DNA from: a virus
Reading direction: 5' to 3' (one strand)
IMG/VR virus record: IMGVR_UViG_3300028735_000001
Location: 1-46,919 of that record
Length of the DNA: 46,919 bases
Positions 128 through 40,935 of this stretch are shown here, piece by piece (positions within the stretch are counted from its first letter, which is position 1; every line of letters begins with the position of its first letter). Under the pieces are notes generated by a model. It searched no databases. It saw nothing but the letters and a program-made list of their open reading frames with translations, and had not been told where the DNA came from. A program made the position numbers and the translations under genes.

Positions 128-1004
128 CGCTACGGCCAATGCCAGAGTAACTCAAGCGAATGCGGAGATCCTGTCCACCGGCAGCGCGGCCAACGCGCTG
201 GTAACCCAAACCAACGCGGAGATCCTTAGCACGCAAGAAGGGTCGAACGTGAGGGCGACTCAATCCAGCGTGGAGATCCTGGTGTATGTCTACAGCTGGA
301 TGATCTACGGCATGGGGCCGATAGACGAATCCAGCGTGCCTGCACCCACGGTGCTTCTGACCCCGCCGCCGCCGCCGCCGGTTTTCTACTTCTACCCGTC
401 CGGCGGCGGAAAGGTGCTCAAGTACAAGCCGGAGAAATCGGCAATCGACGACCGGCTGCTGGCGCTGCAGCGGATCTGGGAGGACTACGCCCGGGCGGCG
501 GTTGAAGGGCAGCCGTCCGCCGGGATCCGCGGCCTGGGTTCGATGGGCCGGATCAGCAACGGCTTCCGCTGGCTGGAATTCGGACGCCAGCGGAGGCCGT
601 GGATGCGGCAGGGATCGATTGTGACGCCCGCACCGGCCAACGGCGACACCGTGGTGTGCGAGTTCGAGGTGCCGGAAGGCTACTATGGCTGGCTGAGCGG
701 TTTCTGGTGGGCCTACACAGGCACCGGCTACGTTGAGGGCAGCACGGACATCGAGTGGCGGATCCGCATTGCAGACCAGTACCCGGACGGCTACGGGCGG
801 GTGCGGTTCCAGATGGGGACGCCGACGGATCCGCTCACCATTACCGGCATGCTGCCGCTGCGATCCAGGCAGACGGTGCGGTTGATCGTGTTCGTCAAGA
901 ACGACAGCGGCAACATCCAAGTGGGTAGCAGCAGGATCATCGGCGGGCTGCGGGGGTGGCTGTACGAGCCGGAGACAGGGGGAAATCTTGGAATCAGGTG
1001 GTGA
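27..1004 (+). CDS. Fibre or spike-like virion protein with N-terminal VTQxNAEIL repeats
   Basis: 325 residues. The first ~85 residues are four to five degenerate repeats of 18-19 residues (RVTQANAEILST and variants), a pattern I know from phage fibre and structural proteins. A proline stretch (PPPPPP, about 117) follows. Residues ~195-315 form a beta-rich domain with VPEGYYGWLSG, YTGTGYVEGS and DIEWRIRI. This domain is clearly related to the whole of the protein at 43821-44354, with shared YTGTG[FY]V[DE]GS and WRIRI. The gene follows two LamG-like adhesins with a 1-base gap and precedes membrane and lysis genes, so a host-binding fibre or vertex spike is likely. The start has no strong Shine-Dalgarno; coupling to the upstream stop is likely. 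The exact virion position is inference. Confidence 0.6.
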   Translation: MAVRVSQTNKEIAGTSSSPTARVTQANAEILSTDATANARVTQANAEILSTGSAANALVTQTNAEILSTQEGSNVRATQSSVEILVYVYSWMIYGMGPIDESSVPAPTVLLTPPPPPPVFYFYPSGGGKVLKYKPEKSAIDDRLLALQRIWEDYARAAVEGQPSAGIRGLGSMGRISNGFRWLEFGRQRRPWMRQGSIVTPAPANGDTVVCEFEVPEGYYGWLSGFWWAYTGTGYVEGSTDIEWRIRIADQYPDGYGRVRFQMGTPTDPLTITGMLPLRSRQTVRLIVFVKNDSGNIQVGSSRIIGGLRGWLYEPETGGNLGIRW

Positions 1005-1011
1005 ACGGAAA

Positions 1012-1293
1012 ATGGAAGTTTCGATCAACGGAGACAGCAGCCCGTCCATGCGGCTCAGGATCGGGTTCCTGGCATTGGTTCAGGTAGTAGTGGCATTGGC
1101 TACTTTCTTCGGAGCAATGAAGGTGATGAGCATGGACGTGGAACGGCTGAAACTGGGGCAGCAGACGGCCAGTGAGAAGATCGACCGGATGCTGGAGACC
1201 CAAGCGAGAATGGAAACGACGATCCAGCAGCTGCGGGAAGAGGTGCGGTACTACCGCGAGCGGCTGGATCGGCATATCGAGAAAAATCAGTGA
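1012..1293 (+). CDS. Small membrane protein with coiled-coil tail, holin or lysis-accessory candidate
   Basis: 93 residues from the ATG at 1012, preceded by AGGTGG. A TTG at 988 behind AGGGGGA would add eight residues and overlap the upstream gene, so the start is uncertain. One hydrophobic segment (IGFLALVQVVVALATFFGAM) is followed by a charged helical tail with heptad spacing (METTIQQLREEVRYYRERL). This N-terminal anchor plus coiled coil is common in phage lysis-cassette accessory proteins. The transglycosylase gene is about 500 bp downstream, which supports a lysis role, but nothing in the sequence proves it. Confidence 0.55.
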   Translation: MEVSINGDSSPSMRLRIGFLALVQVVVALATFFGAMKVMSMDVERLKLGQQTASEKIDRMLETQARMETTIQQLREEVRYYRERLDRHIEKNQ

Positions 1294-1306
1294 AAGGAGG
1301 CTGGCA

Positions 1307-1531
1307 ATGATGAAGAAAGTGCTCAAAGGCGTGGTCAAGGGAGTGCAGATCGTAGGCGTGGGGCTGGGCGCCGCAGCGCTGACGGATCCGGTTTCTCTGT
1401 CAACGATCCTGCCTCCGAAGTACCTGCCGCCGGTGCTTGCAGCCAGCGCGATCATCAACGCGTTCGCACCTGGCCTGGCGCAGGATCTCAAAAAGAAGAA
1501 ACAGGAACTGGGTGGGGAAGACGAAAAGTGA
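1307..1531 (+). CDS. Small hydrophobic protein, holin candidate
   Basis: 74 residues from the ATG at 1307, with a strong AAAGGAGG six bases upstream. It has two moderately hydrophobic stretches (VQIVGVGLGAAALTDPV and LPPVLAASAIINAFAPGL) separated by a proline-containing turn, and a lysine-rich C-terminus (KKKKQELGGEDEK). Two short membrane helices with a charged tail and a position just before the lytic enzyme gene fit a class II-type holin. No family is recognised with certainty. Confidence 0.55.
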   Translation: MMKKVLKGVVKGVQIVGVGLGAAALTDPVSLSTILPPKYLPPVLAASAIINAFAPGLAQDLKKKKQELGGEDEK

Positions 1532-1594
1532 TTCGCCTGACCTTCGCCTATTTTGGACATTACTTCCGAAATGTGGTGCATTTTGAAAACTGGC

Positions 1595-1663
1595 AGCGAT
1601 AGAACCCCGTCTCGAGTGTATATACTCCTACGGAGTATATACCGAGAGCGGGGTTCTGTCGCT
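1595..1663. repeat. 69-base near-perfect hairpin, candidate origin or recombination site
   Basis: The left arm 1595-1628 pairs with the right arm 1632-1663. The inner stem is perfect over 11 bp (gtatatactcc, 3-base loop, ggagtatatac). The outer stem, agcgatagaacccc against ggggttctgtcgct, continues with one G-T pair and small bulges. No T-run follows, so it does not look like an intrinsic terminator. The core, two gtatatac boxes flanking 9 bases, resembles the geometry of a tyrosine-recombinase core site. An origin, dimer-resolution site or attachment site are all possible. It lies in a 257-base non-coding gap between the holin-like and lytic genes. Confidence 0.6.
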
Positions 1664-1701
1664 GAGTTACTTGCCCTGCAGCGAGAACAATATTTCTTCT
1701 A

Positions 1702-1747
1702 CCAGTGTTATATACGCGCGCGTATTGGTATTGAATACTGACACTGG
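1702..1747. repeat. Nested inverted repeats downstream of the large hairpin
   Basis: The outer pair is ccagtgt (1702-1708) and acactgg (1741-1747). Inside lie the 14-base palindrome atacgcgcgcgtat (1712-1725) and the smaller symmetric gtattgaatac (1728-1738). The 9-mer TGACACTGG at its right end recurs over the -35 box of the replication-operon promoter at 8088-8096, so a shared binding protein is possible. Together with the hairpin at 1595-1663 this makes the most symmetric non-coding stretch in the genome. Confidence 0.5.
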
Positions 1748-1788
1748 CACTGGCGGACGGCGCCATCCGCCGGAAGGGAGGTTCAGTC

Positions 1789-2571
1789 ATGGCATCGATT
1801 CGCGACCTGGCCGACGCCGTCATCCGCATGGAAGGCTCCATGCTGCCCGGCAGTGTGAACATGACCATGGTGGCCCAGCACGGTCTGTGGAACTTGGGGC
1901 ATCTTGTGTGGGCTGACCAGAAAAACGCAGTGCCCGTAATCATCAACGGGCGTGCTTGGGCCGGGTGGCCGACCTACGACGAGGCCTACGCCGGCCTGAT
2001 TCGGCAGATCCAGCTGGACACCTCGCGAGGCATGACGCTGTCCCAGTTCATCGCCAAGTACGCGCCGGCGAAAGAGAACAACACTGCCGTTTACATCGCC
2101 AACGTGAGCGCATGGACAGGAATTCCCCCCGACGCCCGGCTTTCCGATGTGCTGGATGATTGGCGAAACCCTCCCTCGGCCCCGACGTTGAACTCCCGCC
2201 TGACGCCGGGGCCGGTTCCTGGTGGGAAACGCTCCTTGCCGACAACAGAGGCGGCGGATTCCAGATCGCCGGATTCGACGGAGCTGCAGCGCTCTGGATC
2301 CTCGCAGCCGCCGTCGGCATCCTCGGCATTGTCATCCTCTCCCGGCGGGATTGAGCCAGGCGGCGGATCCGACACGGACTCCAGAACGCCCCGCGCGAGC
2401 GCTGGCTTGGCCCAGGACAAGCCGGAGGAGCCGGGGGGTACCCTGACCATGCCCGCACCGCCTCCAGCTCGTCCTGGGCCAATTCTGGCGGCGCAGCGAG
2501 CCGCTCTCGCAAGGTTCCTGATCTGGCTAGCCCGCCGGATCTCTGGCGAAGTCCCGAGTTCTGGTGTATGA
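1789..2571 (+). CDS. Lytic transglycosylase-like protein (virion structural P5/P7 type)
   Basis: The first ~127 residues match the phage lysozyme-like family usually annotated as structural protein P5 or transglycosylase: an N-terminal IRDLADAVIRMEG with candidate catalytic Glu15, then YDEAYAGLIRQIQLD, SRGMTLSQFIAKYAP and the conserved ENNTAVYIANVSAWTG. Such proteins cleave peptidoglycan during entry or lysis. AAGGGAGG precedes the ATG at 1789. After residue ~127 the reading frame becomes Pro/Ser/Arg-rich low complexity running to 2571, which looks non-natural. The -1 frame instead encodes a linker and a clean membrane anchor ending at 2354 (see 2160-2354). The functional product may therefore end at 2354 by frameshifting, or there may be a sequence error. 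Confidence 0.6.
   Translation: MASIRDLADAVIRMEGSMLPGSVNMTMVAQHGLWNLGHLVWADQKNAVPVIINGRAWAGWPTYDEAYAGLIRQIQLDTSRGMTLSQFIAKYAPAKENNTAVYIANVSAWTGIPPDARLSDVLDDWRNPPSAPTLNSRLTPGPVPGGKRSLPTTEAADSRSPDSTELQRSGSSQPPSASSALSSSPGGIEPGGGSDTDSRTPRASAGLAQDKPEEPGGTLTMPAPPPARPGPILAAQRAALARFLIWLARRISGEVPSSGV
2160..2354 (+). other. -1 frame extension of the lytic protein encoding a membrane anchor
   Basis: In the -1 frame relative to the lytic gene, codons from about 2166 read KPSLGPDVELPPDAG, then a Trp pair and FQIAGFDGAAALWILAAAVG and a closing SRRD. That is a hydrophobic helix with a positive stop-transfer tail, the same C-terminal design as many virion proteins here. The switch point contains A AAC CCT in zero-frame phase, which formally fits the X XXY YYZ slippery pattern, though CCC is an uncommon choice. 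A TTG at 2160 could start a separate small protein, but no Shine-Dalgarno precedes it. I favour a frameshifted fusion over a separate gene. Confidence 0.45.
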
Positions 2572-2572
2572 T
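2567..2572 (+). promoter_or_regulatory. -10 box TATGAT seven bases before a start codon (leaderless candidate)
   Basis: TATGAT at 2567-2572 matches the sigma70 -10 consensus in five of six positions. The expected transcription start falls on or beside the ATG at 2579, and no Shine-Dalgarno lies before that ATG. The -35 position (about 2544) is weak (TGGCGA). A leaderless message is the direct reading, but a chance -10 match is possible. Confidence 0.35.
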
Positions 2573-2578
2573 GCCCGC

Positions 2579-3316
2579 ATGGAGAACTCCGTCATGTCCC
2601 ATGAGCCTTCAGTGATCGCCCTGCCCCTGCTGGAGGACTGCCATTCAGCCCGCGTCGTAGACCTGGCGTGCGCTTCGCTGTCGGACGCCGCCGAGTACGG
2701 CGTGTCGAACCACGGTTGGCAGGTCGTGTCTCTGCCGCTCTCTCTGCCGCTCACTCTGCTGGCTGGCAAAACCCACCTCATGCAACTCGATCTCATGGAG
2801 CCGGATTCCGCAACGAAACTCGCTGCGGTCAGCCTCGAAGCGCTTCTGCGGGCGCAGGGGGATCCCATGAGCGATCTGACCGTGCGGCGGGTCGTGACGA
2901 TGAACTACGTCATAGCCGTGGCGAGCTTGGCTGACGGCACGCATGTCTACGAAGCTATCGAGCTTGTCGCCAACCGCAATGTGAATGATCCGGCGATGGC
3001 CACCATTCAGTGCTACGACGACGTGGATGATGAAGACGAAGAAGATGGCTGGGAAGACGACGAGCCGGAATGGGATGAGGAAGACGAGTACGAAGACGAG
3101 TACGAAGACGAGGACGAGGAGGAGGAAGACGAGGACGAGGAGGAGGAGGAAGACGAGGACGAGGAGGAGAACGAGGATGACGAGGACGATTCCGACTTTG
3201 AGGTGGAGGACGAGGAAGTCGGTGTCGACGGCGCTGACGAGGTCGACGTGGAGGCTCCGGGGGAGGAAGCTTTGGATCCTGGGCCGGACGGCGACGGTGC
3301 GGGCCGGGCGGCCTGA
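2579..3316 (+). CDS. Protein with very acidic Asp/Glu C-terminal tail
   Basis: 245 residues from the ATG at 2579; GTG at 2564 and ATG at 2594 are alternative starts. Residues 1-145 look like a folded domain of unknown family. Residues ~147-230 are almost entirely Asp and Glu, encoded by GAG/GAC triplets (3020-3210). Such tails occur in DNA mimics that block DNA-binding proteins and in chaperones for basic proteins. In a genome that also encodes very Lys-rich and Arg-rich proteins, a counter-charge or chaperone role is possible, but function is unknown. It is the last gene before a strong terminator at 3481. Confidence 0.55.
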   Translation: MENSVMSHEPSVIALPLLEDCHSARVVDLACASLSDAAEYGVSNHGWQVVSLPLSLPLTLLAGKTHLMQLDLMEPDSATKLAAVSLEALLRAQGDPMSDLTVRRVVTMNYVIAVASLADGTHVYEAIELVANRNVNDPAMATIQCYDDVDDEDEEDGWEDDEPEWDEEDEYEDEYEDEDEEEEDEDEEEEEDEDEEENEDDEDDSDFEVEDEEVGVDGADEVDVEAPGEEALDPGPDGDGAGRAA

Positions 3317-3406: not shown

Positions 3407-3515
3407 AGTCCTCTCTGGACGCGCAGCGCTCTTCTCCTCCGGCGCTGCATGGGGCCAGATTCCTCCGGGCCTCGCGAGCAGCCCCTGATCTCACCTACCG
3501 GATCAGGGGCTTTTT
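3407..3515 (+). ncRNA. Candidate small RNA with anti-Shine-Dalgarno loop
   Basis: The stretch between the putative promoter and the intrinsic terminator has no credible reading frame but has defined structure. A 7-bp hairpin (gcagcgc 3423-3429 with gcgctgc 3442-3448) carries a 12-base loop, tcttctcctccg, complementary to GGAGG-type ribosome binding sites. The terminator hairpin follows. This is the usual shape of a bacterial regulatory RNA. No known family is recognised, and the promoter is only moderately good, so the call is tentative. It might instead be only the 3' trailer of the acidic-protein message. Confidence 0.35.
3481..3515 (+). terminator. Strong intrinsic terminator
   Basis: A perfect 10-bp stem, gcccctgatc (3481-3490) and gatcaggggc (3501-3510), with a 10-base loop, followed immediately by TTTTT (3511-3515). 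It ends the long virion-lysis transcription unit, which runs through the circle junction, and isolates it from the operon starting at 3633. Confidence 0.85.
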
Positions 3516-3612: not shown

Positions 3613-3632
3613 ACCGATTTAGGAGCTAAAAC

Positions 3633-5727: not shown

Positions 5728-6143
5728 TGAGAGTTCTGAACCTGGGCGCCGGAGTGCAGAGCACGACCGTGTACCTGATGGCCAACTCTGGAGAGATCCC
5801 GGCCTACGACTACGCCATCTTCGCCGACACCGGCGAGGAGCCGCAGGCCGTCTACCACCATCTGGACTGGCTGCTCAGCCTCGGCGGGATCCCGATACTG
5901 ATTCGCAGCGCCGGGAAACTGGGCGAAGACCTCATCCGGGGCCACAACAGCACGAACGGCAGGTTCGCCGCCATCCCTGCCTATGTGGATCACGGACTCG
6001 GACGGCGCGAGGGGCGCTGGCCGCGGCAGCCCGGTGGCGCAGGCTGTTCTGGCTGTGCACGGCGGTCCTGGTCGCAGCGGTTGCAAGGAGCTTGCCATGG
6101 TGAGAGACAGAGAACGGTATGGCTGACGGCGAGAGGCGCATGA
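5727..6143 (+). CDS. PP-loop PAPS-reductase-family protein, C-terminal half lost
   Basis: The first ~88 residues match phage phosphoadenosine phosphosulfate reductase-like proteins: [15 protein letters not shown] (PP-loop), [20 protein letters not shown] and [15 protein letters not shown]. In the family, a Cys-containing region (RRQCTREYKI-like) and a helical C-terminus follow. Here the sequence after AAIPAY (about 5983) turns into Gly/Arg-rich residues unlike the family, and none of the three frames restores it. The gene seems truncated or decayed by rearrangement next to the integrase gene. Intact homologues are thought to act in sulfur-linked nucleotide or DNA modification; activity here is doubtful. 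Confidence 0.55.
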
Positions 6144-6754
6144 CCGGGAACCCCAGGAGCATCCGATATGCAACCAAGGAGCAGATCGACGCACTGCTCC
6201 GCGCTGTGAAGAGCAACGTCCGCGACAGGGCGCTGCTGACCGTGATGTACTGGCGCGGCCTGCGTGCATCGGAAGCAGGCAAGCTCATGCTCGCCGACTA
6301 CAACCAGCAGGCGCGGCGCCTGTTCGTCAGGCGGGCCAAGCGCGGCTTGAGCGCAGAGTATCCGCTGTCGCCCGACGAGATCTCCGCGCTCGCCGCATGG
6401 CTGCGAGTGCGTGGGCCGGATCCGGGGCCGCTGTTCGTCTCGAAGAAGCAGCGCCCGGTCAGCCGTCAGCTCGTGTTCGAACTGGTGCGCCGCTATGCGC
6501 AGATGGCGGGCTGGCCGGACGGACTCGCACATCCGCACACGCTGCGGCACTCCATCGCCGTTCATCTGGTCGAGCAGGGCGTCGATCTGCTCGCCATCAA
6601 GGACTGGCTGGGGCACAGCAGCATCAACAGCACGGTCATCTACGCCCAGCTGACCAGCCGCACGCGTAACAAGGTTGCAGAGCAGGTGTATTCCTCCGCA
6701 GAGCCGGAAAAAGTGAGAGTAGACTGGAGCAGGAACGAGAGAAGGCGGCGATGA
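6119..6754 (+). CDS. Tyrosine recombinase (integrase/Xer-like), catalytic domain only
   Basis: 211 residues from ATG 6119; ATG 6140 is an alternative with a GAGAGG upstream. All catalytic residues are visible: Arg49 (RGLRASE), Lys74 (RRAKRG), His140 and Arg143 (HTLRHS), His166 (WLGHSS) and nucleophile Tyr175 (VIYAQL). Only ~25 residues precede the catalytic domain, so the usual arm-binding and core-binding N-terminal domains are missing, as in minimal recombinases. It could integrate the genome, resolve multimers of a circular plasmid form, or invert a segment. No att site is identifiable from this sequence alone; the hairpin at 1595 is one candidate substrate. Confidence 0.88.
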
Positions 6755-7245: not shown

Positions 7246-7823
7246 TCGTCAAAGGCAATCCCAACGTGAAACCGATCCGTGAAGCATACGCTCCGCTGAC
7301 CGAGCTGCAGGTGTTCGACGTCTACCAGACGCGGCAGGACTACGAAAAGGCCACGGGCAATCCGTGTCCGCCGCCGGACCCAAAGCGGCGGCGAAAGCAC
7401 TGGTTCGACCCCGCTTACGCGGGAGTGAGCCAAGAGGACGATGACGGGCAACTCGTGTTTTACCAGACGTTGGCGGTCAACCCGCGCACTCGCGCCGTGG
7501 TGCGTGACTTGAACGGCAAGCCGATGCTCACGACCATTGCCCTGAGCAAGTGGGAGGCTGGCCAGGTCAACATCCCCGAGGGCACGACCAACGAGTTCCC
7601 GCTTTCCGAGCCGATCATGATGTTCGACCAGATTCAGACGCCGCTGCGTTCCCTGGCGCCGGAGGAGGAGCTGGAATTCTACGGCCCGATGGGCGTGGTG
7701 CGCGTCGTCAACACGGTTCTGCGCGACGCGGACAAGGCCAAGTCCGAACAGTTCACCGCCGCTGACCGGGAGACGATTCGTCAGATTCTGCAAATCGTGC
7801 AAGAAATCGAGCGGCGAGTTTAG
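7242..7823 (+). CDS. Hypothetical protein
   Basis: 193 residues from the ATG at 7242, overlapping the previous stop and preceded by AAGGAG. It is soluble with a Pro/Lys/Arg patch (CPPPDPKRRRKHW) and a helical, acidic C-terminus (ADRETIRQILQIVQEIERRV). No recognised domain. Its last 71 bases overlap the 3' end of the repressor gene on the other strand, so the two operons collide tail to tail. Confidence 0.55.
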   Translation: MIVKGNPNVKPIREAYAPLTELQVFDVYQTRQDYEKATGNPCPPPDPKRRRKHWFDPAYAGVSQEDDDGQLVFYQTLAVNPRTRAVVRDLNGKPMLTTIALSKWEAGQVNIPEGTTNEFPLSEPIMMFDQIQTPLRSLAPEEELEFYGPMGVVRVVNTVLRDADKAKSEQFTAADRETIRQILQIVQEIERRV

Positions 7824-8043
7824 GCGCTAAACGCATCCTGCGGGCGCGGATCATGCCGTACAACAGTTCTCCGGGCGGTATCCCGGACGCCCGGCTGAGT
7901 TGCCAGACGGCTTCTGCGCCCGCTTCTCTTTGCCCTGTCAGGAGCTGCCAGATGTACTGTCTGCTGCACCCCATGATGCGCCCGATCCGGGCCAGGTTGA
8001 TCGGCCTCCCGTACACGCTCTCCAGCACGGATTTCTTCGCCAC
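7753..8043 (-). CDS. XRE/Cro-type repressor
   Basis: 96 residues, GTG start at 8043 on the minus strand. Residues ~16-62 form a lambda-repressor-like helix-turn-helix: NLARIGRIMGCSRQYIWQLL, then a basic recognition region and LSRASGIPPGELL. Only this domain and a short basic tail (RARRMRLAPKLAARFLARF) are present, as in Cro-like proteins. It is transcribed away from the replication operon and shares a ~95-base intergenic region with it, the usual layout of a temperate phage switch. No separate CI-type protein with a cleavable C-terminal domain is visible. Confidence 0.75.
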   Translation of the reverse strand: MAKKSVLESVYGRPINLARIGRIMGCSRQYIWQLLTGQREAGAEAVWQLSRASGIPPGELLYGMIRARRMRLAPKLAARFLARFAESDESSPGQRR

Positions 8044-14141: not shown

Positions 14142-14873
14142 ATGCTGTGGGTCGACGAACGAGAGGGCAGCAGAGAACTAGCGGAGCCGCTGCGAGTGCT
14201 CGGACTCGATGTCGAGTTGCAGCGGCTCGACTACGGAGACGTCTGCTGGATGGGGGACGGACCGGACGGACCGTGCCTGGTGGGCGTGGAGCGCAAAACC
14301 GTGACCGATCTGCTTGGCTCGATGCGCACGGGGCGGCTGTGCGGCCACCAGTTGCCCGGCATGAGCACGCAGTACCAGACACTGTACCTGGTCGTGGAGG
14401 GCGTGGTGCGCGAGTGCCCGGAGAACGGACTGTTGCAGCAGCTGTGGCGCGGGCGCTGGAGCGACGTTCGCGTGGGCCAGCAGCGGTTCATGTGGACCGA
14501 CTACGAGCACTATCTGACTACGCTGGACACGCTGGCCGGAGTGCGCGTCAGGCGCACCGGGAGCCTGCGGGAGTCGGCTTCCGTCATCAAGGCGCTGTAC
14601 TCCTGGTGGCAGAAACCGTGGAGCCAGCACGGCAGCCACAAGGTGATCTACACGCCGGATCCGCGCACCGTGTTCCTGGTCGCTCCGGCCACGCTTCGCC
14701 GCGTGGCGGTGCAGCTGCCCGGCGTGGGCTGGGAGCGCAGCCGCGAGGTGGAGCGCTACTTCCGCACCGTGCGCCGCATGGCGGAAGCGGAGATTGCGGA
14801 CTGGCGGAAGATCCCCGGCATTGGCAAAGCCATAGCCGCCCGCGTGCATCGCATCATCAACGAGGGCGACTGA
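14142..14873 (+). CDS. ERCC4-domain (XPF/Mus81-type) nuclease with helix-hairpin-helix tail
   Basis: 243 residues. The N-terminus carries the XPF-family catalytic pattern: WVDERE at residues 3-8, YGD at 31-33, and VERKTVTDL (49-57), i.e. GD...ERKxxxD. The C-terminal ~50 residues hold two helix-hairpin-helix signatures, LPGVGWERSREV and IPGIGKAIAARV, for DNA backbone binding. Such enzymes cut 3' flaps and branched DNA. Together with the XPD/DinG-like helicase it suggests processing of replication or recombination intermediates. Some phages carry single-chain versions of this kind. Confidence 0.85.
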   Translation: MLWVDEREGSRELAEPLRVLGLDVELQRLDYGDVCWMGDGPDGPCLVGVERKTVTDLLGSMRTGRLCGHQLPGMSTQYQTLYLVVEGVVRECPENGLLQQLWRGRWSDVRVGQQRFMWTDYEHYLTTLDTLAGVRVRRTGSLRESASVIKALYSWWQKPWSQHGSHKVIYTPDPRTVFLVAPATLRRVAVQLPGVGWERSREVERYFRTVRRMAEAEIADWRKIPGIGKAIAARVHRIINEGD

Positions 14874-14874
14874 G

Positions 14875-16383
14875 ATGAGATCGGAGCAGTGTCCGTACTA
14901 CTGCGAGGGGCTGTGCCCGTCCGGGCGCACCGTGGTGGAGCCGGTGATCGTTCCGGGCAGCCGGCTGCTGGTCATCGGAGAAGCGCCCGGGCCGACAGAG
15001 GACAGCGAGGGCGTTCCGTTTTGCGGCTCGAGCGGCGAGGAGCTGAACCGGATCTACCTGCGCCAGGCCGGGCTGCGCCGCGAACAGGTGTCGGTCACCA
15101 ACACGGTCCTGTGCCTGCCGCCATTGAGTTCCCGCGGGGATTACACGCCATCGCAAGAGCTGGTAAAACACTGCAGCGGACAGTATCTGGAGAGCGCTCT
15201 GGCCGCTGCTGCACCGGATGTGGTCGTAACTCTGGGCGCCGTCGCTGCGCAGCGCATGGGACTGTCCCAGCCTTTGGAAGAGATGGCATCGCTACCGCAC
15301 TGGATCCGTCTGGACGGACGCAAGGTGCTGCTGCTGCCCAGCTACCATCCAGCCGCAGTGATGCGGTCCGAGACGCGCCCGGCTGTGATCATGACCTCCA
15401 TCCTGCGTGCGTTCGAGCAGGCGGGGCAAGCGCTGCGCGGGCAGTTGCCTCCGGAGGATGCTTGCCCGGAGCCGGACTACTGCGAGGTGGCGGATCCGGC
15501 GGGGCTGTCGTTGTCCGGCGGCGATGTTTCACTGGACACAGAAACCGTGCATGGCGAGTGGTACATGACGAGCTGGTGCGAAGCGCCTGGCATCGCCAGG
15601 TGTACTCGCAGCCGAGACGTGATGTCGGTGCTGCTGGACGGGATCAGAGGCTCCGGCATCCGCCTGGTGATGCACAATGCGCCGTACGACATGAACGTGC
15701 TGCGCCGCGCAGGGTTCCGGCTGGATGGCATCGAGATCCACGACACGATGCTCGCCGCCTACGAGTTTCGCACTGTGCCGCAGGGGCTGAAAATGCTCGC
15801 GCGGCTCCTGGCAGGGATGGAGATGCACAGCTATGAGAGCACTGTGCTGCCGCACACGTTCGCCGCTCTCGCACAGTGGGTCGAGGATGCGGAGGAGACA
15901 CTGCGGAACTGCGTGCTCGCACTCACTCCCGTGCGCAGCGAGTCGCTGCTTCTCATCCAGAGTCCGATTCCGGCCAGGTGGCTGAAGCGCAAGGGCGAGA
16001 CGGTCAAGCAACACTGTGAGCGGCTGATGGGTTTGCACAGCGAGATCGTCGAACTGGCGCGGACGGCGCCGACGGTGCCTGTGCTCGACAACGCCGGAAT
16101 GAAGATGGTCGCCCTGCTCAACGAGGTTCTCGCGGCGGGCCAGCGCACATCCCACGAGGCGCTGTCATTGATGGACAGGATCCGGGACCGCATCATCGCA
16201 GAGGATCCGGCAGCGTTCGAACTCGCAGTGCGGGCGGCTGAACTGGAGCGCCTGCCGCCGCCGCCGCAGAACACGCTGGCGCATTGCCCGGATGATGTGA
16301 GAACCCGCTACTCGTGCCGCGACGCAGACGCGACGCTGCGGATTTGGTTGATTCTGAAACGGGAGTTGGGAGTGGAGGACTGA
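14875..16383 (+). CDS. Uracil-DNA glycosylase (family 4-like) fused to 3'-5' exonuclease, front half of a split polymerase
   Basis: 502 residues. Residues ~1-190 are a family 4-like UDG: cysteines at 6, 10/14, 80 and 100 could hold a 4Fe-4S cluster, motif 1 is GEAPGPTE (35-42), motif 2 is YHPAA (157-161). Residues ~205-500 are a DnaQ/Pol I-type DEDDy exonuclease: LDTET (Asp221, Glu223), HNAPYD (Asn268, Asp272), and YSCRD (Tyr479, Asp483). Polymerases of SPO1-like phages carry a UDG-like N-terminal domain before exo and pol. Here the gene stops after exo, and pol is a separate gene at 17244. Predicted role: proofreading and uracil detection at the fork. Confidence 0.85.
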   Translation: MRSEQCPYYCEGLCPSGRTVVEPVIVPGSRLLVIGEAPGPTEDSEGVPFCGSSGEELNRIYLRQAGLRREQVSVTNTVLCLPPLSSRGDYTPSQELVKHCSGQYLESALAAAAPDVVVTLGAVAAQRMGLSQPLEEMASLPHWIRLDGRKVLLLPSYHPAAVMRSETRPAVIMTSILRAFEQAGQALRGQLPPEDACPEPDYCEVADPAGLSLSGGDVSLDTETVHGEWYMTSWCEAPGIARCTRSRDVMSVLLDGIRGSGIRLVMHNAPYDMNVLRRAGFRLDGIEIHDTMLAAYEFRTVPQGLKMLARLLAGMEMHSYESTVLPHTFAALAQWVEDAEETLRNCVLALTPVRSESLLLIQSPIPARWLKRKGETVKQHCERLMGLHSEIVELARTAPTVPVLDNAGMKMVALLNEVLAAGQRTSHEALSLMDRIRDRIIAEDPAAFELAVRAAELERLPPPPQNTLAHCPDDVRTRYSCRDADATLRIWLILKRELGVED

Positions 16384-17243: not shown

Positions 17244-18623
17244 ATGACCGTGCGCCTGGTGGACAGGCCGGATCCGGGCAATGCGTACCGTATCGACAGA
17301 GGTTGTCTGGAAATGATCGACGAGTTCCATGCCAACGGAATTCTCGCTGACCCGGAGCGGTTCCGCGAGCTGGACGCGAAAGTGGCGTCGGAACTGGAGC
17401 AGGCGCGAAGAGAGCTGCGCGACATCGCCGGGCGCGAGGTCAACGCCGGCAGCAATGCGGATCTGGCGCGGTATCTGTACGACGAGCGCAAGCTGGAGCC
17501 TCCGCTGGGGCTGCGCTACACGGCGGCGGGCGCCCGCTCAACCGACAGCGAGACGCTGAAATCGATGCTGCAACTCGATCCGAGCGTCCGGCTGGTGCTT
17601 CGCATACGCGAACTCGCGAAGCTGCGCAGCACCTACACGCAGCCGCTGCCGCAGATGATCCAGCCGGACGGGCGCATCCGCACCACGTTCCGCCACACAT
17701 CCACAGAAACCGGGAGGCTGACCAGCGACAATCCGAACCTGCAAAACATCCCTGCCAGAACGAAACTGGGCCTTGCCATCCGGGACTGCTTTGTCGCACC
17801 GCCAGGACGCGTGCTGGTCAGTTGCGATCTGAGCCAGATCGAGATGGTGCTGGCCGGGCACCTCAGCGGCGACGAGACGCTGCTCAATGCGATCCGCAAC
17901 GGCAGTGACATTCACACGCTCACCGCAGTGAACGCAATGGGCGTTGCCGAGGAGCGGAGGCAGTACTACATCGGGCTGAGCCTGAAAGCCAAGCGGGAGG
18001 ACGCCGGAGGCGACGAGGAATGGACGGATGAAGAGAGAGCGGACTGGAAACGGTTCAAGCAGGAAGTGCGGCTGCCGGCGAAAACCGTGGGATTCGGCAT
18101 CCTGTACGGGCAGAAGCCGCAGGGCGCCCAGTACAACATCGTGGCGCAAGGCGGGCCGCTCCTGCCTCTGGAGCAGTGCGAGCAGATGGTGGAGAGCTTT
18201 TTCCGCACCTACCCTGGCATCCGGCGCTGGATGCAGCTGCAGGAATCGCGGGCCACGACGTTCGGCTGCGTCTGGGACATGTTCGGACGGGTCCGGTTGC
18301 TGCCCACGGCGATGAGCACGCACGCGCCGCTGGCCAGGAAAGCGGTGCGCGAAGCGGGGAACATGCCCATCCAGTCGAGCGCACAGGGAATTCTGAAGAT
18401 CGCGATGAACCGGGCGATGGAACTCGTGCGCGAGTTCCGCAGCCTGGGATTCAACGTGTTGCCTCTGCTCCAGATCCATGACGAGCTGGTGTTCGAGGCT
18501 GACGATGACTGCGCGGAGGATTTCGCCTCCGCGTTGCGGCAAATCATGGTCAGCGCAGTGAAGCTGCGCGTAGACTACAATGCCAGCTACTCCATTGCGA
18601 GGAGCTGGGGGCAACTGAAATGA
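17244..18623 (+). CDS. polA-like: Family A DNA polymerase, polymerase domain only
   Basis: 459 residues, ATG at 17244 behind GGAGGAG. It has TSTETGRLTS and NLQNIP (about 152-170), motif A CDLSQIE (Asp195, Glu200), motif B AKTVGFGILYG (Lys280, Phe284, Tyr288) and motif C LQIHDELVFE (His412, Asp413). All catalytic residues are present. An insertion of ~40 charged residues (237-277) lies before motif B. The conserved Arg after motif A (ELR in E. coli Pol I) is Val here. No 5' nuclease or exonuclease domain is present; the exo domain is in the gene at 14875, two genes upstream. Expected to replicate this genome as a two-chain polymerase. Confidence 0.9.
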   Translation: MTVRLVDRPDPGNAYRIDRGCLEMIDEFHANGILADPERFRELDAKVASELEQARRELRDIAGREVNAGSNADLARYLYDERKLEPPLGLRYTAAGARSTDSETLKSMLQLDPSVRLVLRIRELAKLRSTYTQPLPQMIQPDGRIRTTFRHTSTETGRLTSDNPNLQNIPARTKLGLAIRDCFVAPPGRVLVSCDLSQIEMVLAGHLSGDETLLNAIRNGSDIHTLTAVNAMGVAEERRQYYIGLSLKAKREDAGGDEEWTDEERADWKRFKQEVRLPAKTVGFGILYGQKPQGAQYNIVAQGGPLLPLEQCEQMVESFFRTYPGIRRWMQLQESRATTFGCVWDMFGRVRLLPTAMSTHAPLARKAVREAGNMPIQSSAQGILKIAMNRAMELVREFRSLGFNVLPLLQIHDELVFEADDDCAEDFASALRQIMVSAVKLRVDYNASYSIARSWGQLK

Positions 18624-23669: not shown

Positions 23670-23926
23670 CTGCGCCCGGGAAGAATTCCTGGCTCAGCCG
23701 CATCGATCCGGCGCGGCTTCCCGTGGAATCTCTGCTCGACGCCATGGAGCAGGATCTCAGCGTCGGCGTGTGCCTCGCCTGCTACGAGGAGCAGGAGCAG
23801 GTGGAGCCGGATGCGCAGGGGCTGCTCTGCGAGTCCTGTGGAGAGCACGCCGTGTACGGCATCGAGATCATCGTGATGGCGCTGCCTCCGTCTGCGTTCG
23901 GGGACGGGGAGGATGACGTGCAATGA
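23666..23926 (+). CDS. Small zinc-ribbon protein
   Basis: 86 residues from the ATG at 23666. GVCLACYEEQEQVEPDAQGL and LCESCGEHAVYG give a CxxC...CxxC zinc ribbon of a type common in phage accessory regions (CLAC...CESCG...VYG). It is likely a nucleic-acid or protein-binding adaptor. The stop overlaps the ParB-like start. Confidence 0.6.
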   Translation: MTAPGKNSWLSRIDPARLPVESLLDAMEQDLSVGVCLACYEEQEQVEPDAQGLLCESCGEHAVYGIEIIVMALPPSAFGDGEDDVQ

Positions 23927-24699
23927 AACCGCAAGCAGTACTCAAGCTGGCCCCCGGCGCCATCGAGCTGGGGGCCAACAGCCGCATTGGCGACGAGCAC
24001 ATCGACCGCATGGTATCGGATCTGCTCGCTGTCGGGGCGCAGTTGCAGCCGGTGGGCGTTGTCAGGCATGGCAGCGCCTACCGTCTGATCTACGGTTACC
24101 GCCGAACGAAGGCGATCAAGCGCATTGCCGAGCGCAGCCTCGTTCCGGAGGGGCATCCGCTGCGCAGCGTGATGGCCGTGCTGCTGCCGCCGGGCACGGA
24201 CGAACTGGCGGCGCAGATTGCGGAGAACAGCCATCGGCTGGAGTACTCGCCACTGGAGGAAGCGGCGCTGGTTGTCCGCATGGAGCAGTCGGGGATGTCC
24301 TCCAAGCGCATTGCCGAACTGTTCGGTCGCAGTCCGGGCTGGGTATCGCAGCGCAAGGCGTTGCTGTCTCTGCCTGAGTCGGTGCAGAAACTGATCGGGC
24401 ACCATCTTACCGTCTACCAGGCCTACCAGCTCACGCTGCTAAGCGACGCGCAGCGTGAAGCGGAGATCCGCAAGCTGCTGCGCGACGCGAACGAGAAACC
24501 GCAGGAGCGGCAGGAGTCGTCGCCCCGCACGTCCGGGCACTTCAGCCGCACTGCAGTGATCCGCGAGTTGAGCGATGCGGTGCAGTCCCTGCCCAAGGGT
24601 GACGAGTGCCGCCGCATCACGGAATTGGTTCTGCGCCTGCTTCAGGGCGAGGTGGGGGCTGACAGGTTTATTGACAGTCTGGAGCAATTGTTGGGCTGA
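23923..24699 (+). CDS. ParB-like protein with helix-turn-helix
   Basis: 258 residues. The N-terminal ParB/Srx-fold domain shows the ParB box YGYRRTKA (57-64) and AAQIAENSHRLEYSPLEEAA (97-115, compare ENIQR...L.P.EEA of ParB). The KorB/ParB-type helix-turn-helix is MSSKRIAELFGRSPGWVSQR (125-144). The C-terminus is a helical dimerisation-type region. ParB proteins load on a centromere site, but no ParA is encoded here, so it may be a partition adaptor that uses a host ParA, a transcription regulator, or a nuclease-like ParB. Compatible with a plasmid-like prophage state. Confidence 0.78.
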   Translation: MKPQAVLKLAPGAIELGANSRIGDEHIDRMVSDLLAVGAQLQPVGVVRHGSAYRLIYGYRRTKAIKRIAERSLVPEGHPLRSVMAVLLPPGTDELAAQIAENSHRLEYSPLEEAALVVRMEQSGMSSKRIAELFGRSPGWVSQRKALLSLPESVQKLIGHHLTVYQAYQLTLLSDAQREAEIRKLLRDANEKPQERQESSPRTSGHFSRTAVIRELSDAVQSLPKGDECRRITELVLRLLQGEVGADRFIDSLEQLLG

Positions 24700-27573: not shown

Positions 27574-29436
27574 TCACGCCGCAGGTTGTCCAGACCCTGC
27601 GCTCCCTGCGCTGCGCCGCTTGCGCTGCGGTGGCTGGGCCGCCGCCGCTTCCGCCGCCTCCTCCGCAGCCCAGATCTGATCTGCAGTAAAGAACTCGTGC
27701 AAGAACTGGCTCCAGCGCTCCGGAGCTTTGCTGACCACGTCCCAGATCGGCGGGAACGTCTTGATCAAAGTTCCGACAACCTGCTCTCCATACTGGAGCA
27801 CGCTGTCGTAAACGATCCGTCCCTGCGCCTGCTCGCCGAACATCCCGGCGTCGGTCAGCTCGATAAGGCGTGCTGCGAAATCGGCTCCGCTCTCGCCGTC
27901 GGAGAACGACTGGAGAAGCGGACGGCGGATCATGCCGAGGAACTGGTGGAACTGTGTCATGGTTGTGTCTCCCTGTGGCGACGGCTGCTGCGGCTGTCCC
28001 TCCGTAGCCGCACCCGGCTGCGCAGCCCCGCCGGGCGGAACGGCGCCGGCAGGCACGGATGCTGGCGGGACCGGCTGCCCCTGCCCTGTTTTCGCCACCG
28101 CCATATTGTACATCGCACCCGCGATGACGGTTCCCAGAATTGACAAGCCCTGCACGATCTGCGGAATGTAGTCGGTCCACGATGATTTGGGCGCCGGCTG
28201 ATCGTCGATGCCCAGCAGGTCGCGCAGTTTCTCCTTCACGCCGGAGAGTTCCTCGAGACTCTGCATCAGCGACTTCGGCTGCTGATCCTGGCTCGCCGGC
28301 TCTGTTTGCGGCTGCGCTGCGCTGCGGGCAAGCATCGTTTCCATGGCGCGGATTCGCTCTTCCTGGATCTGAAACACGCGGTCGACGTACTGCTTGTCGC
28401 GTTCCATCATCAGCGCAAGCACGCGCTCCATGTCCGACTGCGGTTTCTCCGGAATCATCTCGCGGATCACCTGCATGGTCTCCTTGAGCACTGCCGTAGG
28501 ATTCTGCGCTGTCGGCTGGATCTTCAGCGCCTGCTCGACGCCCTTGTTCATGATCTGGGCGGCGCCTTCCGTTGCTGCTTTGATGACTTCCAGGCTGCGG
28601 GCCGCAATGTCGGCGTCGCTGGCCGCGCCGCGGCTTTTCTCCGTCTCGGCACGCTTCGCTTTTTCCTCAGCTACGGTCAGCATTCTGTCCGTCATGCGGT
28701 TGACAGTGCTTGCCAGTTCTTTGACTGCTTCCACGTTCGCCATGTCGTCCTCGTTCTCCTTCCTGCTTCTGAAACCCTCGTCCCCCGGAACCTGTATGCC
28801 CTGGCTCCGGCACCATGTGATGTAGCTCTGGTTTAGCGGATCTGTGACCTCCAGGTGGTCGAGATCGAGTACCGGGCGGTGCTGCGAGAGATCCCTGCCG
28901 CCCAGGTTGCGTATCGTACAGGTGGTCACATTGGAGAGTCCCATGTCCGAATCGTTCAGCTTGAGGTGGTAGTCGCCGGCGCCGTACATTCTGAGCAGAT
29001 CGTCTTGCGAGACATACTCGTAGAGCTTGTCTGCCTGGCGGTGCCCCTGTTTCATGACGGGCCAGATCCGGTACAGGTAAACCACGACGCGGTCGTGGTA
29101 CTCCGGCTTTTCCATCAGGCTACGCCAGTAGTCGAAGAATTTCGCCGGCTTGATGCGGGCGTCCGTAGTGTCGTCACGGAAGTGGCGCGTGATCGGCTTC
29201 GGCAGCGGTTTGACCAACACTTTCGGGGGCCGCTTCTTCCGCTCCTTTGGCGAAGCCGGCACTCTCACAGCACGCTGCGGCTCCGCTTCAGGCTCCCGAT
29301 CCTCGGGAGCCGCTTCGTCTCGCAACTCCTGCTCGATCAGCTCCGCTTCCGTCTGCTGCTGTTGTTCCAGGTACTCCTCAAGCGCCTGGTCCTCAGGTGC
29401 TGGAGGCACGGGCTTGACTTCGTCTGCACCAGCCAT
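27574..29436 (-). CDS. Large coiled-coil protein with one membrane segment, probable virion or assembly protein
   Basis: 620 residues, start at 29436 (minus) behind GGAGG. Acidic, Gln/Glu-rich N-terminus (1-60), a basic patch (KERKKRPPK, 64-72), a globular region ~80-220 (FFDYWRSLMEKPEYHDRVVV), coiled-coil stretches ~231-270 and ~335-370, one likely membrane span ~424-446 (IVQGLSILGTVIAGAMYNMA), then a Pro/Gly/Gln-rich linker and a helical C-terminus ending in a basic QPPQRKRRS. No family is recognised. It is transcribed divergently from the virion operon and shares its regulatory region, so a structural, scaffold or morphogenesis role is the best guess. Confidence 0.55.
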   Translation of the reverse strand: MAGADEVKPVPPAPEDQALEEYLEQQQQTEAELIEQELRDEAAPEDREPEAEPQRAVRVPASPKERKKRPPKVLVKPLPKPITRHFRDDTTDARIKPAKFFDYWRSLMEKPEYHDRVVVYLYRIWPVMKQGHRQADKLYEYVSQDDLLRMYGAGDYHLKLNDSDMGLSNVTTCTIRNLGGRDLSQHRPVLDLDHLEVTDPLNQSYITWCRSQGIQVPGDEGFRSRKENEDDMANVEAVKELASTVNRMTDRMLTVAEEKAKRAETEKSRGAASDADIAARSLEVIKAATEGAAQIMNKGVEQALKIQPTAQNPTAVLKETMQVIREMIPEKPQSDMERVLALMMERDKQYVDRVFQIQEERIRAMETMLARSAAQPQTEPASQDQQPKSLMQSLEELSGVKEKLRDLLGIDDQPAPKSSWTDYIPQIVQGLSILGTVIAGAMYNMAVAKTGQGQPVPPASVPAGAVPPGGAAQPGAATEGQPQQPSPQGDTTMTQFHQFLGMIRRPLLQSFSDGESGADFAARLIELTDAGMFGEQAQGRIVYDSVLQYGEQVVGTLIKTFPPIWDVVSKAPERWSQFLHEFFTADQIWAAEEAAEAAAAQPPQRKRRSAGSAGSGQPAA

Positions 29437-30980: not shown

Positions 30981-31835
30981 ATGACGCTGACTAATCCAGT
31001 TCTGGTTCCTCAAGCTCCTCCGGCTCCGCTGCGCTACACGAAGCCGGGGCGGGATCCCCGCTCCGGCTCTGTGCGGCGCGGCGTAGGGCAGTACACTCCG
31101 GACATAAATGATGTGGTCCTGCCGGAGGAGTATGGAGGATCCGGCATCAGTTGGAGTGGAGCAGCGACCAGTTACGGCACAGGCGTCGCCACTGCGGCTG
31201 CCTCCGGGCAGAACGTAGGGCAAGCTGCCGTTCTCGGAGGCGTGGCGACTGCGGGCCAGATCATGTCGGGCTTGACCGCTGCGGCCTGGGCCGTGCCTGT
31301 GATTGGCGCAGCGGTTGCCGGCGTCACGTTCTGGCTGTCTTCGATCTTCAGGCGGAACGCACAGAAGACAGCGGCCACTCAGATCGTGAATCAGATCGAG
31401 CCGAAACTGAAAGAGAACCTGAACGCCTATTTCTCCGGGCCGCGCACGAGGGAGAGCCAAGCGCAGGCACTGCACAACTTCGATGCGGCGTGGGAGGCGA
31501 TGAGGCAGGCCTGTGCGAACTCGCAGCTGGGCGACGCTGGCCGCCGCTGCATCTCGGACCGGGACCGCGGCGCCTGCGTGTGGAAGGCGAGCTGTTCGCG
31601 CCGCATCGACGGCGTCTGCGTGGATTACGAACTGGATCCGGCGGGCGAGTGCTGGAACTGGTTTGTCGGCTACCGCGATCCGATTGAGAAGGATCCGATG
31701 CCAACGATGCTGGCGCAAGGCCGCAGCGCGTTGCCGGGCGTTGCGGATTCCCTGGCGTCTGGCGGCAGCCCGCTGCTGCTGCTGGCAGGCGCGGGACTGA
31801 TCCTGTACTCGCTGCTGTCATCGAAAGGAGACTGA
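30981..31835 (+). CDS. Virion membrane protein with internal glycine/alanine-rich helix
   Basis: 284 residues. Basic, Pro-rich N-terminus; residues ~60-125 are Ala/Gly-rich with a membrane-active stretch (AAWAVPVIGAAVAGVTFWLS); then RNAQKTAATQIVNQIEPKLK and a Cys-rich region (CISDRDRGACVWKASCSRRI) that may form disulfides; a C-terminal span (LLLLAGAGLILYSLL). The Gly/Ala helical region resembles DNA-delivery proteins that insert into membranes. Located among single-span virion proteins; delivery or vertex role is inference. Confidence 0.5.
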   Translation: MTLTNPVLVPQAPPAPLRYTKPGRDPRSGSVRRGVGQYTPDINDVVLPEEYGGSGISWSGAATSYGTGVATAAASGQNVGQAAVLGGVATAGQIMSGLTAAAWAVPVIGAAVAGVTFWLSSIFRRNAQKTAATQIVNQIEPKLKENLNAYFSGPRTRESQAQALHNFDAAWEAMRQACANSQLGDAGRRCISDRDRGACVWKASCSRRIDGVCVDYELDPAGECWNWFVGYRDPIEKDPMPTMLAQGRSALPGVADSLASGGSPLLLLAGAGLILYSLLSSKGD

Positions 31836-31837
31836 CC

Positions 31838-32125
31838 TTGGCGATGATTCATCTCGGCTCCACGGATTGCCAATGCATCTCGCCGCCCTGCCCCTGCGAC
31901 ATGAAGCTCGTCTACGACCCCGGTCAGTGCCCGCTGGGGACGAAAGCGGAGATCTACCGCCCGGAATCCGCACCGGGCGTGGCAACGGCTGCAGTGGTGC
32001 AGTATCGGTGCATTCCGACATCGCCCGTGCTGGCGGGATTCGGAATCACGCCGCAATGGCTTCTCATTGGCGGCCTGGCATTGGCCGCGATCTGGTTTCT
32101 CAGCAGCGGAAAGGAGGACAATTAG
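31838..32125 (+). CDS. LG-[AS] / DPxxCxxGT family membrane protein (copy 1)
   Basis: 95 residues. The TTG at 31838 is well spaced from AAAGGAG (31824-31830); ATG 31844 is further away. N-terminal MIHLGSTDCQC, then VYDPGQCPLGTKAEIYRP, a Cys before the span, and a C-terminal helix WLLIGGLALAAIWFLSSGKE. The order LG[AS], DPxxCPxGT, C-terminal span recurs in 32128, 35342 and 35925. Probably a virion membrane protein with its Cys-containing head outside the membrane. Confidence 0.55.
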   Translation: MAMIHLGSTDCQCISPPCPCDMKLVYDPGQCPLGTKAEIYRPESAPGVATAAVVQYRCIPTSPVLAGFGITPQWLLIGGLALAAIWFLSSGKEDN

Positions 32126-32127
32126 CC

Positions 32128-32481
32128 ATGCCCATAGTGCGGTTGGGAGCTACAAGTGAGGATGCTAATTCCAAAAACTTCAACGGCATAGTCACAGATC
32201 CCGGCCAGTGCCCTGCTGGCACTGTGGCAAATGCATTCAGAACGGCGGACTTGCCCAGCAGCAGGCGGGACGATCTCTCTCAACTGTTCGGCCCGGATCT
32301 GCCTGAGGTTCTGTACACATGCAACTTGCCTGAGCACGCTCCCACGGGTCCGGTCATCGACACTATTCAATCTGGCAACGGTGGCAGCCAGATTGCATCC
32401 AGTCCGCTTCCGCGGTGGCTTCTCCTCGGCGGTTTGATAGTGGCTGCGCTTTGGTTCTTCAGCAGCGGAAAGGGGAATTGA
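32128..32481 (+). CDS. LG-[AS] / DPxxCxxGT family membrane protein (copy 2)
   Basis: 117 residues from ATG 32128; AAAGGAGG lies ten or more bases upstream. Starts MPIVRLGATSEDANS, has VTDPGQCPAGTVANAFRT and ends in PRWLLLGGLIVAALWFFSSG plus KGN. The last 25 residues closely match copy 1 (GGL...AA.WF.SSGK), so the two genes are a tandem duplication that diverged mostly in the middle. Stop overlaps the next start. Confidence 0.55.
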   Translation: MPIVRLGATSEDANSKNFNGIVTDPGQCPAGTVANAFRTADLPSSRRDDLSQLFGPDLPEVLYTCNLPEHAPTGPVIDTIQSGNGGSQIASSPLPRWLLLGGLIVAALWFFSSGKGN

Positions 32482-34118: not shown

Positions 34119-34297
34119 CAGTGCAGCCCGCAGGAATTTCACAGACTGGATCGATTGTGCAGCCGTCCGGGCAGCAAGACTTGGCAACGGTCTACGCCCA
34201 ATTGTTTGTGCTGGGATTCATCGCCTGGATCTTCTGGAGCGTGTTTGTTAAAGAAGACAAGCCGCAATCGTTTTCCGGATCCGGAAAGGAGAGGTGA
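34115..34297 (+). CDS. 60-residue single-span membrane protein
   Basis: ATG at 34115 overlaps the previous stop. Short polar N-terminus, hydrophobic helix ~27-45 (YAQLFVLGFIAWIFWSVFV), then KEDKPQSFSGSGKER. Same topology as the neighbours; no family. Confidence 0.5.
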   Translation: MTVQPAGISQTGSIVQPSGQQDLATVYAQLFVLGFIAWIFWSVFVKEDKPQSFSGSGKER

Positions 34298-34791
34298 TGG
34301 AAGAAGAAAATATCGACTGGATGAAATACATCCTCATCGGACTGGGTGCGCTGCTTGTGTTCCAGTGGCTGCGCGGGCAGTACAGAATGTCATCCGAACT
34401 GGTTGTCGGAGGGCAGCCCCTGCAGCCACAGCAGCCGCAGCAGCCGCAGCAGCCGCAGAGCACATCGTCAATGCCGATGCCGGAGAGTACCGGCACTGCT
34501 CCTCCGGACGACGTGCTCAAGCAGGCAGCGCTCGATCCGGCGAAGGCGTCGCTCACCGGGGATTGGCGCTACAGCTGGCACGCCTGGAACTACTACCGGG
34601 CGCAGGCGGCCATCGAAGCGGGCCTGTGCTCGCCTCCGTGCTCGGAGTACGCGCCAGTGCTTGGCGAACGCTTCGGGCTGACCGACTCGCAGGGCCTGAC
34701 GGCGAGCGAGTACCACGCATATCTGGCGCAGATCGGCATGGGCCGCCTGTTCTGGGGCCGTAACGCCGTGCAGAGCAGCTGGAGGATGTGA
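34297..34791 (+). CDS. Virion-type protein with N-terminal membrane anchor and PQQ linker
   Basis: 164 residues from ATG 34297 (GTG 34294 possible), behind AAAGGAGAGG. Here the span is N-terminal (YILIGLGALLVFQWL), followed by a linker of QQP repeats and a C-terminal domain (~85-164) with WRYSWHAWNYYRAQAAIEAG and ASEYHAYLAQIGMG, which is helical and aromatic-rich. Inverse topology to most neighbours. No known family. Confidence 0.5.
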   Translation: MEEENIDWMKYILIGLGALLVFQWLRGQYRMSSELVVGGQPLQPQQPQQPQQPQSTSSMPMPESTGTAPPDDVLKQAALDPAKASLTGDWRYSWHAWNYYRAQAAIEAGLCSPPCSEYAPVLGERFGLTDSQGLTASEYHAYLAQIGMGRLFWGRNAVQSSWRM

Positions 34792-34794
34792 GCG

Positions 34795-35333: not shown

Positions 35334-35341
35334 AGGATTTT

Positions 35342-36371: not shown

Positions 36372-36373
36372 CT

Positions 36374-36862: not shown

Positions 36863-36871
36863 GAGACGAAC

Positions 36872-40010: not shown

Positions 40011-40048
40011 CGCAGCCACCGCCTTGAGAAACCAACAGGGAGGCCTGT

Positions 40049-40804: not shown

Positions 40805-40821
40805 CGTTGTTTTCCGCAGAG

Positions 40822-40849: not shown

Positions 40850-40935
40850 GTCGGCGGCGGTGAGAAACCAGGCCCGGCAGAGATGCCGGAGACGATTCAC
40901 AGCATCCGCCCCAAGGGCGGGAAGGAGACAATGCA

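Follow-up and report, generated by a model that had tools for sequence, protein, structure and literature searches.

The window, by which we mean the whole stretch of DNA analysed here (46,919 bases), is the circular map of an uncultured bacterial virus whose first 127 bases are identical to its last 127 bases. It possesses a non-coding gap lying amid lysis-region genes, with a spanin-like ORF just before the left neighbour of the gap and a lysozyme-like ORF at its right edge (Table 1). The flanking plus-strand genes read through the gap. Its composition agrees with an earlier sequence-only reading of the locus, which had described the gap as A/T-richer than its surroundings: the 200-bp segment with the lowest G+C content of the map (0.46) starts at 1551, and of the 1869 segments of this size, eight fall below 0.50 G+C, five of them starting at 1451–1551.

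Table 1 Coordinates of the gap, its elements and the neighbouring or candidate genes in the window.
Feature	Position	Strand	Description
Spanin-like ORF	988-1293	+	phrog_739; just before the ORF at 1307-1531
Small membrane-protein-like ORF	1307-1531	+	left neighbour of the gap
Non-coding gap	1532..1788		holds the element; lowest-GC stretch; same neighbour genes in relatives
Left flank	1557..1583		ACATT-N8-AATGT and AAATG-N5-CATTT half-sites
Long hairpin	1594..1664		71 nt, 32 pairs; apical loop TAC on +, C(GTA)G on -
Apical stem	1618..1642		GTATATACTCC-TAC-GGAGTATATAC, 11 + 3 + 11
A/T-rich stretch	1685..1707		between hairpin and CG tract
ATACGCGCGCGTAT with alternating CG tract	1712..1725		perfect palindrome; CG tract of Z-DNA-prone type
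GTATTG repeats	1722..1733	+	directly after the CG tract
Lysozyme-like ORF	1789-2571	+	right neighbour of the gap
Tyrosine recombinase	6119..6754	+	catalytic domain only (about 195-211 aa); PF00589, 1.8e-34; candidate binder
ParB/KorB-like DNA-binding protein	23923..24699	+	PHROG and Pfam matches; second candidate binder

Downstream of the lysozyme-like gene and a gene for an acidic protein, a T-tailed terminator is located at 3480–3511. The protein encoded at 2564–3316 has a long Asp/Glu-rich tail, and its repeat tract matches the DNA of relatives at the same place. Elsewhere, the map encodes an ERCC4-domain nuclease with a helix-hairpin-helix of the XPF/Hef type (14142–14873; Pfam PF02732, 1.5e-13) and a DNA polymerase in two ORFs (14875–16383 and 17244–18623) that match different parts of phrog_17. 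A minus-strand gene for a protein of 620 aa (27574–29436) is 42–48% conserved in two of the relatives described below (G007 and G002), and no family matches its product above threshold. Among the proteins of 30981–46817 scanned with PHROGs and Pfam, none was named as terminase, portal or capsid protein, and several ORFs in this part have a membrane-like segment at the end. A conserved 274-aa protein (42090–42914) was modelled to see whether the virus has a tail; the model, with a mean pLDDT of 46.9, was dropped. The named-phage collection contains no match to the DNA of 1000–3000 or of 38463–40010, and the protein matches in it are all distant (polymerase, recombinase, lysozyme and two others); the family of the window is without a close relative in the collection searched.

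The hairpin in the gap is the strongest fold of the 47-kb map, which confirms the near-perfect hairpin previously placed at 1595–1663. Its irregularities comprise one 3-nt bulge, one 1-nt bulge and one T.G wobble, which reads as U.G in a plus-strand transcript, as does the wobble of the relative G009. Folded as RNA, the gap reaches −111 kcal/mol (z = −7.3), a value as good as which was found in none of 200 shuffles. The six best of 4681 segments of the map (110 nt, G+C-corrected fold energy) all lie on the hairpin, with residual z values of −6.7 to −4.1, compared with −3.9 for the best segment elsewhere. At the top of the stem, two GTATATAC copies (1618–1625 and 1635–1642) are separated by nine bases and are the sole two in the map; the sequence-only reading saw them as symmetric boxes, and they are real, but form the two sides of the apical stem rather than separate boxes. 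The 23-base core of the apical stem has IMG/VR matches only in G001. The absence of a T-run after the hairpin, also noted from the sequence, extends to both strands and to all four hairpins inspected: none is followed by at least five consecutive T, and the 10 nt beyond each stem contain three to five T. A single TTTT starts four bases past the stem on the minus strand of the window.

The nested palindromes previously described at 1702–1747 stand in part. The palindrome ATACGCGCGCGTAT is real and unique, its position at 1712–1725 being the sole match with up to two mismatches in 46,919 bases, but the outer arms CCAGTGT/ACACTGG are not co-centred with it.

Relatives were found through the lysozyme-like protein and the DNA polymerase (G001, G007, G009, G008 and the pair G002/G003). 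Six gaps were read, namely those of the window, G001, G007, G009, G002 and a truncated G003, in which the gap is cut by the contig start. This contig begins, inside the gap, with GATGTGTATAAGAGACAG (L018 1–18), which we take to be a transposase adaptor, likely untrimmed. Outside the counts are G008, which begins with the lysozyme ATG and lacks a gap, G004 and G005, which have no lysozyme match, and the distant G006 and G010 (52–54%). The DNA of G001 is approximately 91% identical to the window in the gap region, and its lysozyme is 91% identical to that of the window; for G007, G009, G008 and G002/G003, lysozyme identity is 55–64%. Wherever they are visible, the genes flanking the gap are identical in kind across the relatives.

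A long hairpin is present at the same place in the gaps of three of the four lineages (window/G001, G007 and G009), with lengths of 53 nt in G007 and 85 nt in G009, arm sequences that are unrelated and asymmetric mid-stem bulges in all three. Even G007 and G009, which are 72–81% identical in the longer flanking matches, share no evident sequence in their hairpin arms. Just before the hairpin, the two have 28 identical bases (read by eye) that end inside the left of the palindromic boxes described below, and a 21-base part of this match is found in only these two contigs in IMG/VR. The gaps of G002 (860 bp) and G003 (396 bp visible) are both rich in palindromes and repeats, and have shorter palindromes and 25-bp repeats instead of a single long hairpin. 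Within the lineage of the window, the hairpin differs from that of G001 at one position in 71 nt, against a surrounding divergence of 9% (P = 0.01); taken together, the hairpin and the CG/TATTG segment have one substitution in 111 nt (P = 3e-4 at 9% divergence). Divergence to the left of the hairpin is ordinary (6 differences in 62), and six insertion columns of the alignment lie just past the CG/TATTG segment.

The gaps of all six genomes contain an alternating CG run of at least 8 nt. Outside the gap, the window and G001 have a single such run each, and further runs are absent from the G007, G002, G009 and G003 sequence; by chance, this placement in four lineages would have a probability of approximately 1e-8. 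GTATTG-like repeats directly 3′ of the tract are present in the window, G001, G007 and G009, and not in G002/G003. On the minus strand, the apex of the hairpin reads C(GTA)G in the lineage of the window and C(GAA)G in both G007 and G009. A C(GNA)G apex is thus common to three of three hairpin lineages, compared with approximately 10 of 152 other triloop hairpins (stem of at least 6, six genomes, either strand). The loop of G007 and G009 (TTC on the plus strand) may have been inherited together, so that the apex counts as two or three independent instances. By contrast, the T.G wobbles of the window and G009 are better tolerated on the plus strand, and the active strand may be either. Three further GNA loops were rejected as counterparts of the gap hairpin: those at G002 30188 and G003 1465 are inside coding sequence, and the stem at G002 11188 is apart from the gap. 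The sequence-only reading had staked its proposal on conservation of the structure in related genomes, where both position and architecture are indeed kept. As judged by sequence comparison, the gap is a real signal, because the relatives keep its layout while the letters of the hairpin change.

In the relatives, the hairpin is accompanied by palindromic ATGTNACAT boxes. There are exactly two in the 49-kb record of G007 and two in the 23-kb record of G009, in each case one flanking the hairpin on the left and the other on the right, with no copy elsewhere in the record; the control pattern, ATGTNACAT backwards, gives 0 matches in nine records. The chance of both boxes falling in the gap is 2e-5 for G007 and 2e-4 for G009. 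The spacers between box and hairpin are the same in both genomes (3 nt for the left box, 6 nt for the right), with hairpins that differ by 32 nt, as would be expected if the hairpin folds out and something spans its base. G003 has three boxes, two in the gap and one approximately 170 bp upstream of the recombinase gene, and G002 has two, one in the gap and one upstream of the recombinase gene; in this pair, relaxed copies accompany the strict ones. Neither strict nor relaxed ATGTNACAT copies are found in the window or G001, where the half-sites of the left flank might just conceivably be a diverged counterpart of the boxes.

Two encoded DNA-binding proteins are candidates for binding at the gap. 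A tyrosine recombinase is encoded in all seven virus records of the family (window, G001, G002, G003, G007, G008 and G009). The recombinases of the relatives are 62–92% identical to that of the window, with 62–66% identity between lineages whose hairpins are unrelated. The closest solved relatives of the window's recombinase are Xer proteins, and the alignments retain what we take to be the catalytic residues. The ParB/KorB-like protein is also found in G001, G002 and G007. The KorB operator is given as TTTAGC(C/G)GCTAAA (PMC2680271), and similar palindromes of the TTTAGNNNCTAAA type are located in the window at 3618–3630 and 7819–7831 (TTTAGGAGCTAAA and TTTAGGCGCTAAA). Sites of this type number two in the window at up to one mismatch, compared with 0.08 expected, and have counterparts in G001, G002, G003, G007, G008 and G009; they are possible operators of the ParB/KorB-like protein. 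That this protein would have sites of its own elsewhere suggests that the recombinase or another regulator is left for the ATGTNACAT boxes.

Our preferred reading, to which we assign a probability of about 0.36, is that a phage protein, which may be the recombinase, docks at an extrudable DNA hairpin in the gap. The gap would act as a conserved cis-acting control site at the level of DNA. Under negative supercoiling of the phage DNA, the inverted repeat would extrude as a hairpin or cruciform, in which a C(GNA)G triloop of very high stability would cap the minus-strand arm; the alternating CG tract and the A/T-rich stretch would likewise respond to supercoiling. In the relatives, the ATGTNACAT boxes are 71 or 103 bp apart; extrusion would leave only a few nucleotides, constant in number, between them at the junction, where one protein assembly could then grip both. 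The most likely binder would be the tyrosine recombinase of the phage itself, because one lineage has a further copy of the box ahead of the recombinase gene. It could serve there in genome resolution or integration or, alternatively, regulate both the late lysis genes and its own gene in an MrpR-like manner. We infer extrusion in the cell, the binder and its purpose, whereas the hairpin with its conserved position, the CG tract, the boxes and their constant spacers, and the recombinase gene are observed directly. With the boxes unrecognisable in the lineage of the window, the binding sequence there must presumably have diverged.

This docking site is preferred because a DNA-level site would account together for the position, the free sequence with fixed structure, the boxes, their spacers and the CG tract, whereas an RNA-processing hairpin would explain only the position and the free sequence with fixed structure, and an origin the composition. 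Several observations speak against it. Neither the window, which is the genome to be explained, nor G001 has the strict box, and G002/G003 lack a single long hairpin. The comparison comprises four lineages only, with the TTC loop perhaps shared by descent in G007 and G009. The T.G wobbles, better tolerated on the plus strand, could equally point to RNA; the six insertion columns between the window and G001 fall just past the CG/TATTG segment; and the recombinase gene is 4.4 kb distant from the gap. A more specific version for this double-stranded-DNA phage family, in which extrusion of a free-sequence hairpin joins two boxes at a four-way junction for a recombinase that has only a catalytic domain, so that supercoiling would license recombination or repression, strikes us as a long shot.

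The proposed docking site resembles the supercoil-extruded virion-RNA-polymerase promoters of phage N4, which are likewise phage DNA hairpins with a three-base loop, one strand of which reads 5′-C-G-N-A-G-3′ (PMC4496689). In N4, non-conserved stem bases are free while the hairpin is kept (PMC4496689). In the present family, one strand carries the C(GNA)G apex in all three hairpin lineages. Unlike in N4, however, the stem has 10–12 pairs and a long lower stem rather than 7 bp, there is a single site, and no virion RNA polymerase was named in the PHROGs/Pfam scan, in which many proteins have no match. The recombinase resembles MrpR of SPbeta, a phage repressor with a tyrosine-recombinase fold that acts on repeated operators, SPBRE (PMC10516654); as in that system (PMC10516654), a phage protein of this fold, here a candidate binder, is found together with short repeated intergenic boxes. 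It differs from MrpR in keeping the catalytic residues and having no core-binding domain, and its putative boxes frame a long hairpin.

The docking site has to be weighed against the view that the element works in late mRNA, where host RNase III would cut the 32-pair bulged hairpin, or exonucleases would be blocked by it, separating and stabilising the lysozyme message and timing lysis. The T7-type hairpins that RNase III processes have long bulged stems within polycistronic phage transcripts, and the enzyme needs double strand rather than sequence, so that the arms may drift. The long bulged stem in the gap resembles these hairpins, and the flanking plus-strand genes that read through it, the strong predicted RNA folds with about two helical turns of double-stranded RNA, the structure kept through changes of sequence, the asymmetric mid-stem bulges of all three lineages and the U.G pairs of the window and G009 all suit such a role. 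It leaves unexplained, however, the pair of flanking ATGTNACAT boxes with their 3/6-nt spacers, the further box that precedes the recombinase gene, the CG tract of all six gaps and the minus-strand GNA apex, and the long hairpin is absent in G002/G003; we regard it as unlikely, if plausible. Quite unlikely is a replication origin, at which the hairpin or cruciform, an A/T-rich melting zone, the CG tract and short repeats would recruit an initiator. The gap is the lowest-GC non-coding stretch and contains repeats (GTATTG, or the 25-bp repeats of G002/G003) and palindromes at a conserved position in a circular map, but no initiator gene was recognised among the proteins scanned. The origin proposed by the sequence-only reading also fares poorly by GC skew: the detrended cumulative curve turns away from the gap in four of four genomes, with its minimum 8–12 kb and its maximum 20–29 kb after the gap, a weak test where nearly all genes are on one strand. 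A transcription terminator is hardly credible; the lower stem is G+C-rich and lies between genes, but the four hairpins lack a T-run on either strand, and the T-tailed terminator follows at 3480–3511.

The remaining alternatives involve the two candidate binders in other roles. The sequence-only reading had compared the site to a recombinase core, and the tyrosine recombinase is indeed encoded throughout; a sequence-specific attP, dif-like or dimer-resolution core would share with Xer/dif and Cre/lox sites a phage-encoded recombinase and inverted symmetry. Such a core is also favoured by the G002/G003 box that precedes the recombinase gene and by the lack of intergenic room beside this gene in the window, which would place an att site elsewhere. 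Against it, the hairpin is not an ordinary dif/att core, because its arms are unshared between lineages with recombinases 62–66% identical; conserved arms of 11–13 bp with a 6–8-bp spacer are lacking, and the inverted arms are split by 3 bases. A suggested comparison with tRNA gave no tRNA-like match, nor did the window or five relative loci match an Rfam family at the gathering score; at E≤1, only two microRNA models appeared, far below their cut-offs, as generic hairpins do. No integrated copy was found in 257 and 396 genomes of one host group, guessed from a Bryobacterales MAG whose lysozyme homologue is 54% identical. Lysozyme matches in this group were seen in six of the 257 genomes at E≤1e-3 and in two of the 396 at E≤1e-6, the best being that MAG, whose gap, read by eye, has none of the elements. 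We consider a core of this kind improbable. For a partition (parS-like) or packaging site, also raised by the sequence-only reading, the odds are poor. The ParB/KorB-like protein is encoded in the window and in relatives, but the gap has no parS-like palindrome, the KorB-like TTTAGNNNCTAAA sites are at 3618 and 7819, and no ParA was named among the proteins scanned. Chromosomal-type parS, which we take to be a TGTTTCACGTGAAACA-like palindrome, has as its sole match in the window one with three mismatches at 15525. As no terminase was recognised, packaging cannot be placed. On the whole, the sequence-only reading is partly supported.

Two further identities were rejected. Telomere-resolution sites of the N15 type combine a large inverted repeat with a CG-rich palindrome, as does the gap, and a protelomerase site was suggested by TACGCGCGCGTA. 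No protelomerase was found, however (PF16684 has 0 matches at E≤1 in the window), the central TAC is unpaired, odd in number and not self-complementary, and the CG palindrome ATACGCGCGCGTAT is off-centre and not co-centred with the outer arms. An integron attC is rejected in turn, with R boxes, whose motif we take to be GTTRRRY / RYYYAAC, numbering 0 on both strands of four of four gaps.

With a hairpin that is kept while its sequence is rewritten, and boxes at a constant distance in two relatives, the locus offers a natural and compact way of asking whether control by DNA extrusion occurs in phages other than N4. To our knowledge, structure-directed recombination has so far been confined to integrons and single-stranded-DNA phages; if the recombinase binds here, this mode would extend to a phage with a circular double-stranded genome. 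Should the answer prove ordinary, a control locus would still be gained for a group that has so far gone undescribed.
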